Assembly: GCA_013415865.1 (NCBI GenBank)
Contig: CP058896.1
Span: forward strand, 1 to 64,000
Source: Methanomassiliicoccales archaeon
GTDB lineage: Archaea; Thermoplasmatota; Thermoplasmata; Methanomassiliicoccales; UBA472
Direction of reading: 5' to 3'
DNA length: 64,000 nt
The notes below the pieces were generated by a model that worked only from the letters and a program-made list of their open reading frames with translations, did not search any database and was not told the origin of the DNA. Made by a program: the position numbers and the translations under genes. Positions 3,345-43,210 of this stretch are shown in pieces (the first letter of the stretch is position 1; the number at the start of each line of letters is the position of its first letter).

Positions 3345-5003
3345 ATGGCATATGGTATGGGCAGTAATCAGCCGATCATTATCCTCAAAGAAGGAACCGA
3401 GAGATCGAAGAACAAGGACGCGCAGTTCAACAACATCGCTGCCGCCCGCGCGGTCGCCGATGCAGTGCGCTCCACTCTCGGCCCGAAGGGAATGGACAAG
3501 ATGCTGGTCGACTCGCTGGGGGATGTCGTCATCACCAACGACGGCGTCACGATATTGAAGGAGATCGATGTACAGCACCCAGCGGCCAAGATGGTCGTGG
3601 AGGTCGCCAAGACCCAGGACAACGAGTGCGGTGACGGCACGACCTCGTCCGTGATCATCGCGGGCGAGCTCCTGAAGAAGGCCGAGGGCCTCATAGAGAA
3701 CAACATCCACCCCACGATCATAGCGAACGGGTACAAGATGGCGGCCAACGAGGCCATCAACATCTTGGACAACATCGCCATCACGGTGACACCGAACGAC
3801 TCGGACATGCTCCAGAAGGTCGCGCAGACGGCCATGACCGGCAAGTCCGTCGGCGGTCAGAGGGACTTCCTCGCAAAGCTTGCGGTTAAGGCCGTCCAGG
3901 CCGTCGCAGAGAAGGTCGATGGCAAGTACAACGTCGACGTGGACAACATCAAGGTGGAGAAGAAGACCGGAGGCTCCATCGCCGACACCGAGATCATCGA
4001 GGGCATCGTCATCGACAAGGAGAGGGTCCACCCGCGCATGGCAAAGCAGGTGAAGAACGCCAAGATAGCGCTCATCTCGGCCCCGCTCGAGATCAAGAAG
4101 ACGGAGGTCGAGGCAAAGATCCAGATCCGCGACCCCGCCTCGATGCAGCGCTTCCTTGAGGAGGAGGAGAACACCCTAAAAGGATATGTGGAGAAGATCA
4201 AGGCCTCGGGCGCGAACGTCGTGTTCTGCCAGAAGGGCATCGACGACCTCGTGCAGCACTACATGGCCAAGGCCGACATCTTTGCCTGCCGCCGCCTAAA
4301 GGAGTCCGACATGGAGAAGATCTCCCGTGCGACCGGGGCCAACATCGTCGGTAAGCTCGACGAGCTCACCGAGAAGGACCTGGGCAAGGCCGAGATGGTC
4401 GAGGAGAAGAAGATCGGCGAGTCCGACATGGTCTTCATCACCGGCTGCAAGAACCCGAAGGCGGTCAGCATAATCATACGCGGAGGCACTGAGCACGTCA
4501 TCGACGAGGTCGAGCGCGCCCTGCACGATGCATTGCGCGTCGTCGGCGTCGCGATCGAGGACGGAAAGGTCGTCCCAGGCGCCGGTGCCCCTGAGATCGA
4601 GCTCTCATTGAGGCTCGCCGCCTATGCATCCACCATCGGAGGACGCGAGCAGCTCGCGATAGAGGCGTTCGCCAACGCGATGGACGTGATCCCATGGACG
4701 CTGGCCGAGAACGCTGGCCTCGACGCGATCGATGTCGTCATCCAGCTCAAGAGCGCCCATGAGAAGAAGGGCGGCAAGAACATGGGCATCGACCTTGACT
4801 CCGGAAAGCCGGCCGACATGTTGAAGCTGAACGTCATCGAGCCGCTCCGCGTCAAGACCCAGGCGGTCAAGTCCGCGGCCGAGGTCGCGAACATGATCCT
4901 CAGGATCGATGATGTCATCGCGGCAAAGAAGGCCCCGCCGGCACCACCCGGTGGCCAGGGCGGACAGGGCGGAATGCCGGGCGGTATGCCTGGCATGATG
5001 TAA
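3345..5003 (+). CDS. ths: thermosome subunit (group II chaperonin)
   Basis: A 552-residue archaeal chaperonin subunit that would assemble into a double-ring ATP-driven folding chamber in the cytosol. Hallmarks are the N-terminal [20 protein letters not shown] and the nucleotide-binding GDGTTS near residue 95, the apical-domain region in the middle, [19 protein letters not shown], the equatorial [11 protein letters not shown], and a Gly/Met-rich tail ending GGMPGMM. Length and order match the family. Codon use is GC-rich and regular, typical of a highly expressed gene. It appears monocistronic with its own strong promoter. Confidence 0.98.
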
Positions 5004-37630: not shown

Positions 37631-38734
37631 TCACTCGAGCTTGACAAGCCTTTCATATCCATAGCCCACGAGGACCCTCCTGAACCCTGAAAGGTCGTAG
37701 TCCAATGAGCCGTCCCCGGTGTCGGCCCTCAACGTCTTCAGACCGTTGAGTTTGTTCCTCGTTGCAGCAATTATAATATGATCTATGCCGGCCCTCCTTA
37801 TGACCTGCGGAGAGATCTGCTGGTTCCCCCTTCCGAAGATGAAACCTTGTCTACCTATCGGCGTAACGACTATCCACACATCTTTTTCGCTCACCATATG
37901 TGATAAGATATCCTTTTCGGACGCGTCCTTATGCACCATGCGTCTGTTTTTCACCAGGTCCACACCTAACAATGTCTTATCGATGCCCAACACCTTCCCG
38001 ACGGCCTCGACCGTCGTCCCTGGCCCAAGCACGTACAATGCATCCGGAACCATCTTGTCAACGATGTAAGAGGCTATCTCCTGTTTCTCCTCCTCTTCCC
38101 CCTGGACCTCCATTGTGCCTTTTGGAAGCTGTACGAGATTAATATCATCGATGACCCTCAGATAACCCACGAGCTTGGCGGTCAGCACCCCTTCTCGGAA
38201 CATGTCCTCGTCGATGTCCATCACCTCGGCCTCGACGGTCCTCCTATTGCCTTTAATGAACGATGAGATGAGCAGGCCCGCATCATGTGGATGGTTGGCG
38301 AACACGCCGGAATGCATCTTGACACCGGCCGGTATGCCGACACAGGTAATCGGGCCGTCCACACCCTCCATGACATCCCTCGCGGTACCATCGCCGCCAC
38401 AGAATATTATCAGGTCACACCCCATCTGGCAGAAGAGCCTTACCACCTCGGTGGTGTCCTTCCCCTGGGTCACCTTTCCAGGATGATAGATGATTTCGTA
38501 TGTCAACCCCATCTCTTCAAGAAGGCTCCCTCCCATCTCACCTCCCGCGGCCAAGAAATGTATGCCAGAGAGGTCTCCAGCGGAGATCAATGCTTCTTTG
38601 GCCCTTGAACGGGCCTTTGGAATGGCACCACGAGCGATCGCCTCATCCTTTGAGGCCCCGTCGGTCCCCTTAAGGCCGACGCTGCCGCCCATCCCCGCAT
38701 AGGGGTTGATGACGAGACCGAACTTCATAGCCAC
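37631..38734 (-). CDS. ATP-NAD kinase-like protein (COG3199/AcoX type)
   Basis: A 367-residue protein with the NAD-kinase fold. The signature LIIFCGGDGTARDVMEGVDG near residue 115 gives the GGDGT motif, followed by VGIPAGVKMHSGVFA. It belongs to the longer COG3199/AcoX branch, not to the classic PpnK. It starts MAMKFGLVINPYAGMGGSVGLKGTDG. Whether it phosphorylates NAD is not proven for this branch. It lies 98 nt after the FtsZ-like gene on the same strand. Confidence 0.85.
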   Translation of the reverse strand: MAMKFGLVINPYAGMGGSVGLKGTDGASKDEAIARGAIPKARSRAKEALISAGDLSGIHFLAAGGEMGGSLLEEMGLTYEIIYHPGKVTQGKDTTEVVRLFCQMGCDLIIFCGGDGTARDVMEGVDGPITCVGIPAGVKMHSGVFANHPHDAGLLISSFIKGNRRTVEAEVMDIDEDMFREGVLTAKLVGYLRVIDDINLVQLPKGTMEVQGEEEEKQEIASYIVDKMVPDALYVLGPGTTVEAVGKVLGIDKTLLGVDLVKNRRMVHKDASEKDILSHMVSEKDVWIVVTPIGRQGFIFGRGNQQISPQVIRRAGIDHIIIAATRNKLNGLKTLRADTGDGSLDYDLSGFRRVLVGYGYERLVKLE

Positions 38735-38832: not shown

Positions 38833-39645
38833 TCACATGTGCAGCTGTGCAGGAGGTATCGGCTCAAGCTTAGCCTCACATGCGGACGGTCTGCTGGAGA
38901 CGACCGCATCCGAGATCAGGGCAGGCCTAGGTCGAACGTGCTCTGCGGCCTCGTTACCGATGACCTCATCGATCTCCTCCCTCAGCGCAGAGAGAAAGGC
39001 CTGGTTCGCCTGAGCGCAGAACGAGTCGATCAATCTTATCACATTCCTGTCTATGATGCTGAACGCCTTGTTGAGCGGGAGGTTCTCACCTCCTTTCAAC
39101 AACATGTCATTCTCGAAGATGTATGTGTTGTTCTCTATCGATCTGAGCTTGGAAACGCCTTCCTTTGCCTTCTCGATGCGCTCACCTTCAAAAGAGAACG
39201 GATTGATAGCGATGACGAATGTGAAGGACTTCATCTCTTTAGATATCTTCGCCACAATAGGTGCGATGCCGGTACCCGTCCCACCGCCCATCCCAGCGAC
39301 AACGAAGACAAGGTCATTGCCCTTGATGACGTCGCGGATGGCCTCTTTGGCACATTCCCCACAATATTCCCCGACCTCGGGGAATCCGTTGGTGCCTTTC
39401 CCCTGCGTGACGTCCTTTCCTACCAGAAGCTTAGTGTCGGCAGCCACCCTTTGCAGAGACGATTCGTCTGTGTTTATAGCAACAGTATGAACATTGTTCT
39501 TGCAGCTCGAGTGTACGCTGCTCACTATATTGCTCCCTGCGCCCCCTATCCCAATGACGGCTATCTTAGGTTCCGTCATACCTTTCACCAGCGCGCCAAC
39601 GAGCTGTTCTCGTTTAGCGATATGGTCCAGTTCCCCTGATCTCAT
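38833..39645 (-). CDS. FtsZ-like GTPase-domain protein lacking the second domain
   Basis: A 270-residue FtsZ/tubulin-family protein. The GTP-binding half is intact: IAVIGIGGAGSNIV, AINTD, VFVVAGMGGGTGTGIAP (tubulin signature), PFSFEGE, and PLNKAFSIID. The protein then turns into a helix (SFCAQANQAFLSALREEI) and a short proline-rich tail, where a full FtsZ (350-390 residues) continues with the T7 loop NxDxxD and the C-terminal domain. No frameshift is visible downstream, so the short form looks genuine. ATG 39645 follows GGGGGA. It lies 109 nt after an RHH gene, an arrangement recalling cdrS-ftsZ2 of haloarchaea. Without the T7 loop it could not activate GTP hydrolysis in a neighbour. Confidence 0.85.
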   Translation of the reverse strand: MRSGELDHIAKREQLVGALVKGMTEPKIAVIGIGGAGSNIVSSVHSSCKNNVHTVAINTDESSLQRVAADTKLLVGKDVTQGKGTNGFPEVGEYCGECAKEAIRDVIKGNDLVFVVAGMGGGTGTGIAPIVAKISKEMKSFTFVIAINPFSFEGERIEKAKEGVSKLRSIENNTYIFENDMLLKGGENLPLNKAFSIIDRNVIRLIDSFCAQANQAFLSALREEIDEVIGNEAAEHVRPRPALISDAVVSSRPSACEAKLEPIPPAQLHM

Positions 39646-39753
39646 TTGATTTCCCCCGGTGTCCATCCTAAGAGGTTTTCACACCGAGCCCCAACCCAGT
39701 GTGATGTGCATCCCATCCCTTCCAGCAGGCCCTCCCAAGGCCTTTAAGGCCTA

Positions 39754-40110
39754 TCACATCCTTTCGAGGATCTTCCTCTCCCCATCGAACAGCTTGCCCT
39801 TCACTTCTTCGATCTTGTCCTTGGGCAGGAATTCGCGGCGGAGAACTTCCTCGACAGCAGATTCGAAGGAAGAGTAGTATCCCATCTCTACCATCCTCTC
39901 GATAATGCTGTGGACCGCCCCGGGCACCCTGATGGATACCCGGTCTGCCGAGTTCTTGAGGTGGATGCCTTCATCACGTTCGATGAAGGAGCGGATGGCG
40001 ATCCTCGCGAGGTGCGACCTGTTGGAGAACTCAGGATGCTTTTCGACGAAATCATCAATCAGCTCGAGGTCTTCGGGTTCAAGCCTTAGCGATATTCTTT
40101 CTCCATCCAC
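39754..40110 (-). CDS. tandem ribbon-helix-helix regulator (CdrS-like position)
   Basis: A 118-residue DNA-binding protein made of two RHH units: residues 4-45 (ERISLRLEPEDLELIDDF ... SNRSHLARIAIRSFIE) and 57-95 (DRVSIRVPGAVHSIIERM ... SFESAVEEVLRREF), then a charged helical tail. A single chain could thus act like an RHH dimer. It lies upstream of the FtsZ-like gene on the same strand, and its promoter contains a perfect 17-bp dyad, which suggests autoregulation of this operon. Haloarchaeal CdrS, a single RHH, controls ftsZ; the parallel is one of position and fold only. Confidence 0.85.
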   Translation of the reverse strand: MDGERISLRLEPEDLELIDDFVEKHPEFSNRSHLARIAIRSFIERDEGIHLKNSADRVSIRVPGAVHSIIERMVEMGYYSSFESAVEEVLRREFLPKDKIEEVKGKLFDGERKILERM

Positions 40111-40142
40111 TATACCCAGTCCTCTTTCGGTGACAGACTTAT

Positions 40143-40200
40143 GTATGACATTGTCATACTTAGTATTTAATAATATTCCATTTGTTATTATATTGTCATA
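40143..40200 (-). promoter_or_regulatory. promoter and operator of the RHH-FtsZ operon
   Basis: GTATGACATTGTCATAC at 40143-40159 is a perfect 8-bp inverted repeat around one base. Just upstream on the minus strand is the TATA-like TTATTAAATAC (about 40162-40172), and a further half-site TGTCATA lies at 40194-40200. The dyad lies between the TATA box and the expected start, an operator position. Spaced half-sites are typical for RHH proteins. Confidence 0.65.
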
Positions 40201-40327: not shown

Positions 40328-43210
40328 ATGCTCAGTAATCCGACCGAGATCGAGGCCAAATGGCAAGAAAAATGGTACTCAAGCAAGATCAATGAGGCCA
40401 ACCGCGACGGTCGAAAAAAATTCATGATCATCTTCGCTTACCCAGGGGTGACCGGCTATCTTCATGTTGGTCACATGAGGGGATTTTCCTATGTCGATGA
40501 CATCTCTCGATATATGAGGATGCGTGGATACAATGTGATGTTCCCAGTTGGCACGCACGCGACAGGAAATGGGCCGATATCTTTGGCAAAGAAGGTCCGT
40601 GCGGGAGATGAGAACACTATCTCCTACCTCCTCAGGAACGGCTGTCCAAAGGAAAGGCTTGAGGAGCTCAAGGACCCGGTCGGAGTGGTCGAGTTCTTCA
40701 ACCAGGTATATGTTGAACAGTACTGGCGGCGCTTTGGATTCATGGCCGATTGGCGCAGATTCGCCTGCACCGTTCATGAAGAATATGGTAAGTTCATACA
40801 ATGGCAGTTCAGAAAGCTCATGGAGGCAGGCCTTCTCATCCAAAAACCATATTATGCTCCGGCCTGCGTGAATTGCGGTCCGGTCGCCATAGATGCCTCT
40901 GAGACCGACATCTCCTGCGGTGGGAACGCTGAGACCACTGAGTACACGCTCATGAAGTTCAGGTGCGATGACCTGATATTGTTGGCGGCAACTCTGAGAC
41001 CTGAGACGGTCTTTGGCCAGACCAATTTCTGGGTCAATCCCGAGGTCGAATATGTCAAGGTCAAGGTCGGGGAGGAGATATGGGTCATGAGCCGACCTTG
41101 TCTGGACAAAATGAGATACCAGAAAGAAGGTCTTACAGAGGTCGGAACGATCCATGGCCGCGACCTCATAGGCAAGTTCTGTACCGCTCCGATGACAGGG
41201 AGGAGGATACCTTGTCTACCTGCGTCGTTCTGTGACCCGAACGTGGGGACTGGCCTCGTTGTCAGCGTCCCATCCGACGCCCCTGATGACTGGGTCGCAC
41301 TTATGATGCTGCAAAGGGATGAGGAGCTCTGCAGAAAATATGGTCTCGACGTCGATATGGTGAGGGCGATCGTGCCGATTGCGATCATTGACACCAAGGG
41401 CTGGGGCCCTATGCCGGCGGTGGAGATCGTTGAGAGGATGGGCATAACAACGTCCGGGGACCCGAGGCTCATCGAGGCTAAGAAGATAGTTTACAAGGAA
41501 GGGTTCCACGCTGGAAGGATGAACTCCAATTGCGGCAGATACTCGAACCTTCCGGTGGACAAGGCCAAAGAGATGATGAAGGAAGATATGCTGAGGGCGT
41601 CCGAGGCAGACCTATTCTATGACCTGTCTGAGAAGGTGGTCTGCAGGTGCGGGGAACCTGTTGTGATCAAGAAGGTCACCGATCAATGGTTCATCGACTA
41701 TGCGAACGAGGACCTCACGGCCCGCAGCAAAGAGCATGCGAAAAAAATGCTGATAATGCCCACAGATTACATGACAAACATACAGGGTGTGCTCGATTGG
41801 TTCCGGGAGAGGGCATGTGTCAGACAGGGCAATTGGCTGGGCACGCGGTTCCCGTTCGATGAGAAATGGATAATAGAGGCGATCTCCGATTCCACGCTCT
41901 ATCCTATTTATTATACGGTCTCTTTGTATGTGAACAACGGCTCCCTGAAGGCCGAGAACATGACCACAGAGTTCTTTGATCATGTCTTCCTCGGCAAAGG
42001 AGATATCGAAGAGGTCGTCAACGCGACCAAGCTTGAAAGGTCTTTGATCGAGAAGATAAAGGCCGACGTCGACTATTGGTATCCTCTCGATGTCAATCTT
42101 GGCGGAAAAGAGCATATGACCGTTCATTTCCCTGCGTTCGTAAAGAACCACGTGGCGATACTTCCTGAGGAAAAGCTTCCAAGGGGGATCTTTGTCAATT
42201 GGTATGTGATATCTAAGGCAGGAAAGATATCGAAATCCAAAGGCGGCGCACAACCGATACCGGGGGCCGCTGAGAAATACGGTGTGGACGCGCTGAGATT
42301 GTACTATGCCCATATCGCATCTCCCTTCGCTGACGTCGAGTGGGATGAGGAGGTCATAGAGAACTATGTGTCCAAGGTCGAAAAGGTCATGAGGACCGTG
42401 GAGGAACTCTCGTCCATCAGGTCGATGGGCCCCGCGTCAGGGATCGACATGTGGCTGCTCTCACGATTGAACTCAAGGCTCGAGAGGGTCATCTCTGCGA
42501 TGTCCCAATTTGACCTGAAGACCTTGGCGAACGAGGCCTACTTCGAGATACCGAATGACCTGAGATGGTATGTCAGGCGGGGTGGTGGGAACGCAGAGAC
42601 CATCTCCAAGGCGCTCAGCGTCTGGGTGAGGATGATGGCCCCGATAACACCGCACATCGCCGAGGAGATGTGGGAGCATCTTGGGAACAGAGGGTTCGTC
42701 ACAGACGCCTCTTTCCCTGAGCCTGACACATCATTGTGCTCATTGCGGTCAGAGATCGCTGAGGACTATCTCAGGGCATTGATGGACGACATAAATGAGA
42801 TACTGAAGGTGACCAAGATCGCACCGAAAAGGGTGTTGATTTATACGACGCCATCTTGGAAGGAGAAGGGCATGGTCATGGCCCTCGAACTAGCAGAGAA
42901 GGGGGAGCTCAAGGTGCCCACGCTCACAAAGGCCATGATGCAAGATGAACATATCAAGAAGCATGGGAAAGAAGCGTCAGATTATGCCCGAAAGACGGCG
43001 GAAGACCTTCTAAAAAGGTCGAAGGTGGAGCTGGATAAGCTGAAGTCAGTATTCGATGAACTTGAGTTCATCAGGTCCGCATTGCCCTTCCTGATAAAGG
43101 AGTTCGGGTGTGAGGTCGCGGTGTTCAATGCAGATGACCCGCAGCGTCCAGACCCCCAGAACAAGGCACGAATGGCTCAGCCTCGGAGACCCGCGATCTA
43201 CGTCGAGTAG
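40328..43210 (+). CDS. leuS: leucyl-tRNA synthetase, archaeal type
   Basis: A 960-residue class I synthetase. Seen: the first signature PGVTGYLHVGHMRGF (HIGH motif as HVGH, about residue 45), THATGNGP, the CP1 editing domain with LRPETVFGQTNFWVNP, DVNLGGKEHMTVHF, and the KMSKS-type loop KISKSKGGAQPIPG. A C-terminal anticodon-binding and archaeal extension follows. Length and order are typical of archaeal/eukaryotic LeuRS. The start at 40328 fits the family N terminus (NPTEIEAKWQEKWY). A tRNA-Leu gene lies 3 kb away. Its own promoter is within the AT-rich 40200-40327 gap. Confidence 0.98.
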   Translation: MLSNPTEIEAKWQEKWYSSKINEANRDGRKKFMIIFAYPGVTGYLHVGHMRGFSYVDDISRYMRMRGYNVMFPVGTHATGNGPISLAKKVRAGDENTISYLLRNGCPKERLEELKDPVGVVEFFNQVYVEQYWRRFGFMADWRRFACTVHEEYGKFIQWQFRKLMEAGLLIQKPYYAPACVNCGPVAIDASETDISCGGNAETTEYTLMKFRCDDLILLAATLRPETVFGQTNFWVNPEVEYVKVKVGEEIWVMSRPCLDKMRYQKEGLTEVGTIHGRDLIGKFCTAPMTGRRIPCLPASFCDPNVGTGLVVSVPSDAPDDWVALMMLQRDEELCRKYGLDVDMVRAIVPIAIIDTKGWGPMPAVEIVERMGITTSGDPRLIEAKKIVYKEGFHAGRMNSNCGRYSNLPVDKAKEMMKEDMLRASEADLFYDLSEKVVCRCGEPVVIKKVTDQWFIDYANEDLTARSKEHAKKMLIMPTDYMTNIQGVLDWFRERACVRQGNWLGTRFPFDEKWIIEAISDSTLYPIYYTVSLYVNNGSLKAENMTTEFFDHVFLGKGDIEEVVNATKLERSLIEKIKADVDYWYPLDVNLGGKEHMTVHFPAFVKNHVAILPEEKLPRGIFVNWYVISKAGKISKSKGGAQPIPGAAEKYGVDALRLYYAHIASPFADVEWDEEVIENYVSKVEKVMRTVEELSSIRSMGPASGIDMWLLSRLNSRLERVISAMSQFDLKTLANEAYFEIPNDLRWYVRRGGGNAETISKALSVWVRMMAPITPHIAEEMWEHLGNRGFVTDASFPEPDTSLCSLRSEIAEDYLRALMDDINEILKVTKIAPKRVLIYTTPSWKEKGMVMALELAEKGELKVPTLTKAMMQDEHIKKHGKEASDYARKTAEDLLKRSKVELDKLKSVFDELEFIRSALPFLIKEFGCEVAVFNADDPQRPDPQNKARMAQPRRPAIYVE

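Follow-up and report, generated by a model that had tools for sequence, protein, structure and literature searches.

The window that we analysed, i.e. the whole stretch of 64,000 nucleotides from a Methanomassiliicoccales archaeon with a complete genome of 1.82 Mb (hereafter the host), encodes an FtsZ reduced to its GTP-binding half, directly preceded by the gene of a tandem RHH protein. FtsZ works as a filament, its GTPase site being formed only where two subunits meet; since an FtsZ with only the GTP-binding half has been conserved, we consider that selection has kept the half-subunit for a use of its own. On sequence comparison, the truncation is old and has a single origin inside FtsZ2. 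As regards its function, the reading that we favour, and to which we give an even chance, is that an old duplicate of the cdrS-ftsZ2 operon has become a self-regulated, GTP-binding switch unable to polymerise head-to-tail; we favour it because the short FtsZ persists where canonical FtsZ has been lost.

The features of the locus are collected in Table 1. On the minus strand the order is RHH, short ftsZ and then a NAD-kinase-like gene. The mcrA gene was found in the host and in 11 out of 11 relatives tested.

Table 1. Features of the short ftsZ locus, in positions of the 64,000-nt window
Feature	Coordinates	Strand	Remarks
NAD-kinase-like gene	37631..38734	-	PF01513 and PF20143; 98 bp downstream of short ftsZ
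Short FtsZ ORF	38833..39666	-	277 aa; matched by PF00091 and, in part, by TIGR00065
Parts of short FtsZ			GTPase domain, extended H7 helix, disordered tail; without T7 loop and C-terminal domain
Tandem RHH regulator gene	39754..40110	-	118 aa, GTG start, two RHH repeats
Perfect 17-bp dyad GTATGACATTGTCATAC	40143..40159	.	pair of TATGAC sites in inverted orientation, downstream of the TATA box
TATA-box-like element TTAAATA	40164..40170	-	position conserved in relatives
Upstream TATGAC operator site (candidate)	40195..40200	-	doubled at 10-bp spacing in many relatives
Leucyl-tRNA synthetase (LeuS) gene	40328..43210	+	divergent neighbour; marks the orthologous locus in relatives

An earlier note on this DNA had placed a tandem RHH gene ahead of the truncated FtsZ, and both RHH repeats are indeed present. 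The NCBIfam model of CdrS (NF058555) matched residues 4-47 of the protein, i.e. its first half, with 34.8 bits, missing the cut-off of 100, and its predicted structure was of no more than fair quality (pLDDT 76, pTM 0.35). The true start of the short FtsZ is likely Met8, at 39645, where several relatives also start. The same note had tied the module to the NAD-kinase-like gene. This gene is real and a frequent neighbour, lying downstream of short ftsZ in the families f1, f3-f6 and f24, but it had no match at the loci viewed in f2 (the family that we took to be Methanomethylophilaceae), and for this reason we rejected it as part of the core.

The GTP site had been described as intact, and the T7 loop and the C-terminal domain as missing; the profile matches agree with this on both points. 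PF00091 matched residues 34-191 of the short FtsZ with 120.7 bits, passing its curated cut-off of 33. The FtsZ model TIGR00065 matched residues 30-212 only, stopping at position 198 of its 353, with 188.3 bits, i.e. below the equivalog cut-off of 295.2 bits. FtsZ_C (PF12327) was not found on the host protein, while the same model matched 7 other places in the host genome. The AF2 model (pLDDT 84) has the fold of the FtsZ N-terminal domain, and its best matches in the PDB were FtsZ structures, with ~190 of 308 residues aligned at an rmsd of 1.3-1.4. In this model a single helix of ~45 residues (198-242) replaces H7-T7 and is followed by a disordered tail, the extension of H7 past residue 214 being predicted with only moderate confidence. 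Past this residue the helix is amphipathic and its hydrophobicity tracks the helix periodicity; therefore the extension probably either shields the exposed side of H7 or forms a dimer.

The same domain content was seen when the short form was compared in relatives, as had been proposed: PF00091 matched 99 of 99 short forms (E <= 0.01) and FtsZ_C none of the 99. The T7 loop motif N-x-D-x-x-D was not found in the short forms and is present in six other FtsZs of the host (L001-L006). In S. aureus FtsZ the T7 residues N208, D210 and D213 are required for assembly or GTP hydrolysis (PMC8936486). Since this loop is missing, the short FtsZ, which should bind GTP, should neither self-assemble into ordinary filaments nor hydrolyse GTP in the usual way. 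The phosphate loops are nearly fixed among the 99 sequences (GGxG in T1; GGGTG[TS]G in T4, strictly in 91 of them), and so are, fixed or nearly so, N65, D67, E160 and N186. Damaged GGGTGTG loops were observed in three short FtsZ copies, L073 (genome G027), L265 (G096) and L275 (G048). The tails are similar within families and a G-hydrophobic-D motif occurs in one tail out of 99; a GID motif has been described at archaeal FtsZ C-termini (PMC8178401).

Two further residues bear on the possibility that the protein is a filament cap, whose GTP face would dock on the T7 (bottom) face at the end of a canonical FtsZ filament and block addition, the RHH protein setting the dose. In S. aureus FtsZ, D46 and R143 act with the T7 loop of the next subunit (PMC8936486). 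The equivalent of D46 is kept in 98 of the 99 short forms, those of f2 included, and at R163, which corresponds to R143, 88 of them have Arg and 5 have Lys, the residue being kept even in f2. A protein with a top face and a GTP pocket, with these contact residues conserved and with no bottom face, is what a cap would need, and we regard this reading as possible, though on the doubtful side. The conservation of both residues in f2 fits GTP sensing and would also fit some partner that inserts a loop. The lost position equivalent to S. aureus Q48 was dropped as an argument, archaeal FtsZ being often without Q48 too.

To describe the spread of the module, the short FtsZ and the RHH protein were queried against 41 genomes (the host and 40 relatives). 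Orthologues of short FtsZ, of about 226-332 aa (one of 199 aa) and adjoining an RHH gene, were found in all six families of the order. Considering the Methanomassiliicoccales genomes of >=90% completeness, the short form was present in 71 of 76, i.e. in 13/15 for f1, in 16/16 for f3-f6 and in 42/45 for f2; it was also found in further lineages of the class. At all the loci inspected, which belong to f1-f6 and to five families from other orders, the gene directly upstream of the short FtsZ was an RHH gene. LeuS stands beside RHH-short ftsZ at 6 of 6 f2 loci viewed, and also in f24, where four genomes have the order LeuS-RHH-short ftsZ-NAD kinase, and in f13 (LeuS-RHH-short ftsZ); the f7, f8 and f18 loci read RHH-short ftsZ. 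A scan of named genomes yielded ordinary FtsZs for the most part, with L090 as the one clear short form, since the conserved GTPase motif swamps such a search and near records may have been omitted.

The earlier note had reasoned that a full-length FtsZ at this locus in relatives would make the truncation recent. The relatives carry the short form at the LeuS-RHH-ftsZ locus, and a recent truncation or frameshift was rejected, given that relatives share the short form and that no remnant of the missing domain lies downstream. Conserved across the whole order and beyond, the truncation is not recent. In a tree of GTPase domains the short forms make up one clade, with support 99/96 within the order and 98/82 when other orders are added, nested inside the FtsZ2 side of the tree; here the row of Haloferax FtsZ2 was identified by its C-terminal peptide NNGLDVIR (PMC8406309). 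The exact place of the f7, f8, f13 and f18 rows is unsure because of their long branches.

The RHH and short FtsZ pair was not found in G005 (f1, 2.7 Mb, 99% complete) or in G018, both of the host's own family, and from the first of these, given its completeness, the pair is not indispensable everywhere. These absences, together with the damaged GTP motifs in G027, G048 and G096, are what one would expect of a truncated paralogue nearing loss and without conserved function. We find this hardly credible, as GTP motifs, operator and RHH partner are kept across the order and beyond, and among the FtsZs of f2 it is the short form that is best preserved, while the FtsZ2 orthologue decays.

A search of the host for full-length FtsZ, also proposed earlier, was positive. 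Besides the short FtsZ there are seven PF00091 loci and seven FtsZ_C matches, none of the latter at the short FtsZ; by tree and motif, they comprise five FtsZ1-type genes (L001-L005), one FtsZ2 (L006) and one divergent gene (L008). A cap would thus find six canonical FtsZs in this host. The host FtsZ2 has a tandem RHH gene of its own (L006, L196; L196 corresponds to positions 980500-991500 of the host genome). Five FtsZ1-type genes in a 1.8-Mb genome are an unusual expansion, and FtsZ-type matches number 5-8 per genome in most of the order outside f2. The divergent gene (L008, host genome 486265-489519, ORF 1093-2079 on the minus strand) encodes a second unusual FtsZ-like protein. This protein and its relatives L204-L207 are about 305-330 aa long, have a degenerate N-terminal region and lack the T7 motif; this type is kept in several genomes of the order, and in the host a CopG-like gene lies upstream.

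The situation is different in f2. Canonical FtsZ was not found in 63 f2 genomes, and FtsZ_C was not found in any of the 6 f2 genomes tested with it, while it matched in 21 other genomes and in 13 of 14 controls. The short form was the best match nearly everywhere in the 63 genomes, with one copy per genome. A second match, where present, was weaker, and those that were read are decayed FtsZ2 proteins of 266-321 aa, located at the L12-RHH-TrmJ locus wherever the neighbourhood was viewed. The f2 FtsZ2 orthologues display a gradient of decay (L085-L088, L185/L191, L266-L273). The FtsZ2 of G036 is missed by PF00091 and is also without the GTP signature, which the short form keeps. We had considered the short FtsZ as the only FtsZ of G036, and rejected this because of the very decayed FtsZ2 present there; it does hold for G022 (99% complete), in which ftsZ2 is gone, RHH lying directly against TrmJ, while the short form is undamaged. 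In that genome the deletion of ftsZ2 between the two genes appears precise (L192:3998-4002) and the RHH gene is left orphaned.

Capping had been suggested as what the short FtsZ may do. It does not stand as a shared function, because the short form, with its GTP pocket, persists in f2, where a cap would find no canonical FtsZ in any of the 63 genomes; G022 has lost even the decayed FtsZ2. One could also think of a split filament in f2, i.e. of a single mixed polymer of short FtsZ and decayed FtsZ2, the latter supplying the C-terminal part that it has kept. Both genes are retained in many f2 genomes and their losses seem partly complementary, as in G036, where the GTP signature is missing from FtsZ2 and present in the short form. 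We hold it to be quite improbable, the T7 N-x-D motif being found in none of the decayed FtsZ2 sequences read and the short form being intact in G022, which has no FtsZ2 gene.

SepF was found in 14 of 17 genomes, the host included, and not in G022, G027 and G036, all of which have the short FtsZ. According to a survey, SepF in archaea is systematically accompanied by FtsZ1 or FtsZ2 (PMC8178401). ESCRT-III (PF03357) was not found in six f2 genomes; this is soft evidence, since the model matches only weakly even in Sulfolobus. In Methanomethylophilaceae, which are gut methanogens with human and rumen species among them, division seems to proceed with no canonical FtsZ and with no detected ESCRT-III. 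A tentative reading, towards the unlikely end, is that in this family the GTPase-domain-only FtsZ is the last FtsZ with an intact GTP pocket and has a part in division with no T7 loop and, in some species, with no SepF or detected ESCRT-III, as a minimal tubulin whose mechanism would be other than that of treadmilling filaments. These genomes are apparent exceptions to the rule that links SepF with FtsZ1 or FtsZ2 (PMC8178401); the family has cultured members, such as Methanomethylophilus alvi (PMC10673518).

Upstream of the RHH gene, the earlier note had proposed the perfect dyad GTATGACATTGTCATAC as the operator. The dyad is real and unique: it is the sole perfect copy in the 1.82-Mb host genome, the next best having 2 mismatches, and 0.12 matches with <=3 mismatches are expected by chance in the window. 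It should sit about at the expected transcription start. The view that only the perfect dyad matters was replaced by a set of TATGAC sites that is conserved in relatives, of which the dyad is the local version. We counted 86 TATGAC sites in the 29 promoters of f1 and f3-f6, against 4.0 expected from shuffles (maximum 10), and each of these 29 promoters outside f2 has the motif. Two sites typically lie at -86 and -76, spaced by 10 bp, and one or two more follow at about -52 to -32. Between them the TATA-like element is typically at about -57, and in most of the relatives' promoters it falls within about -55 to -66, counted from the start codon of the RHH gene. The f24 promoters have the same TATGAC sites and the f13 promoter has an inverted pair, TATGAC-N4-GTCATA. 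We infer that the TATGAC repeats around the TATA box are a conserved operator, assigned to the RHH protein by position and conservation, with a layout that would fit the needs of an autoregulating RHH protein.

In the promoters checked upstream of the host's other FtsZ genes TATGAC was not found. In the promoter of the full-length FtsZ2 operon (L196, upstream of the RHH gene at 4421 on the minus strand), TGTCTGACA and TGTCAGACA take the place of TATGACA, and the two RHH paralogues therefore seem to recognise different operators. These data also bear on a third possibility, in which the short FtsZ is a GTP-sensing transcription co-factor of its RHH partner and has no filament role. No other feature is as constant as the pairing with RHH across all the families and orders inspected, and the operator is conserved along with the pair; however, pairing alone says little, since cdrS-ftsZ2 is an equally fixed pair in which FtsZ2 is a structural division protein, and, operator sites of the TATGAC type being found only at the short FtsZ's own promoter, the regulon would be very small. 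We consider such a co-regulator unlikely. It and the cap are the main rivals of the switch, and the two do not exclude one another.

For the switch that we favour, the steps would be the following. The archaeal cdrS-ftsZ2 operon would have been duplicated long ago, and the FtsZ2 copy would then have lost its second domain, leaving a GTP-binding half-subunit that makes no head-to-tail filaments. The RHH protein would bind the TATGAC sites and repress its own operon, thereby setting the amount of short FtsZ. In its GTP-bound state, the short FtsZ may dock on division partner proteins through the GTP face, the extended H7 helix or both. In species with canonical FtsZ, this partner may be a T7 face at the end of an FtsZ2 or FtsZ1 filament, with capping or a block of nucleation as the outcome; in Methanomethylophilaceae the short FtsZ would act without canonical FtsZ.

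No account of a GTPase-only FtsZ was found in the literature searched for FtsZ with the order, class and family names, in which subscription papers were mostly outside the search. That archaea have several FtsZ copies and that ftsZ2 adjoins an RHH gene had already been noted (PMC9871819). The nearest known system is cdrS-ftsZ2 of haloarchaea (Darnell et al. 2020, PMC7439475; for CdrS of H. volcanii, PMC8406309), and the likeness to it that had been pointed out is confirmed in that the RHH gene is directly upstream of an FtsZ2-type gene, which falls in the FtsZ2 clade, and that the first RHH repeat resembles CdrS, albeit below the cut-off. Unlike CdrS, of about 55 aa, the RHH protein here is tandem, with 118 aa, and unlike FtsZ2 of that operon, the FtsZ here has neither a T7 loop nor a C-terminal domain. 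In H. volcanii, CdrS binds 18 sites across the genome, whereas the perfect dyad occurs once in the host genome. Because a full-length, cdrS-ftsZ2-like pair is found elsewhere in the host (L196), the short-FtsZ operon is a second, derived copy.

With canonical FtsZ (FtsZ1 and FtsZ2) the short form shares a GTPase domain with all the nucleotide-contact motifs and a fold that matches FtsZ crystal structures; it differs from the canonical PF00091 plus PF12327 arrangement in having no T7 loop, no FtsZ_C and an H7 predicted to be elongated. SulA and MciZ are FtsZ inhibitors that occlude one face of the filament, and the short FtsZ would be like them if it caps, with the difference that it is itself one half of an FtsZ, with a GTP pocket, and that the likeness meant here is one of mode of action. 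CetZ, TubZ and artubulins are FtsZ paralogues, archaeal or plasmid-borne, that have kept the second domain; unlike them, the short form falls within FtsZ2, and FtsZ models describe it best.
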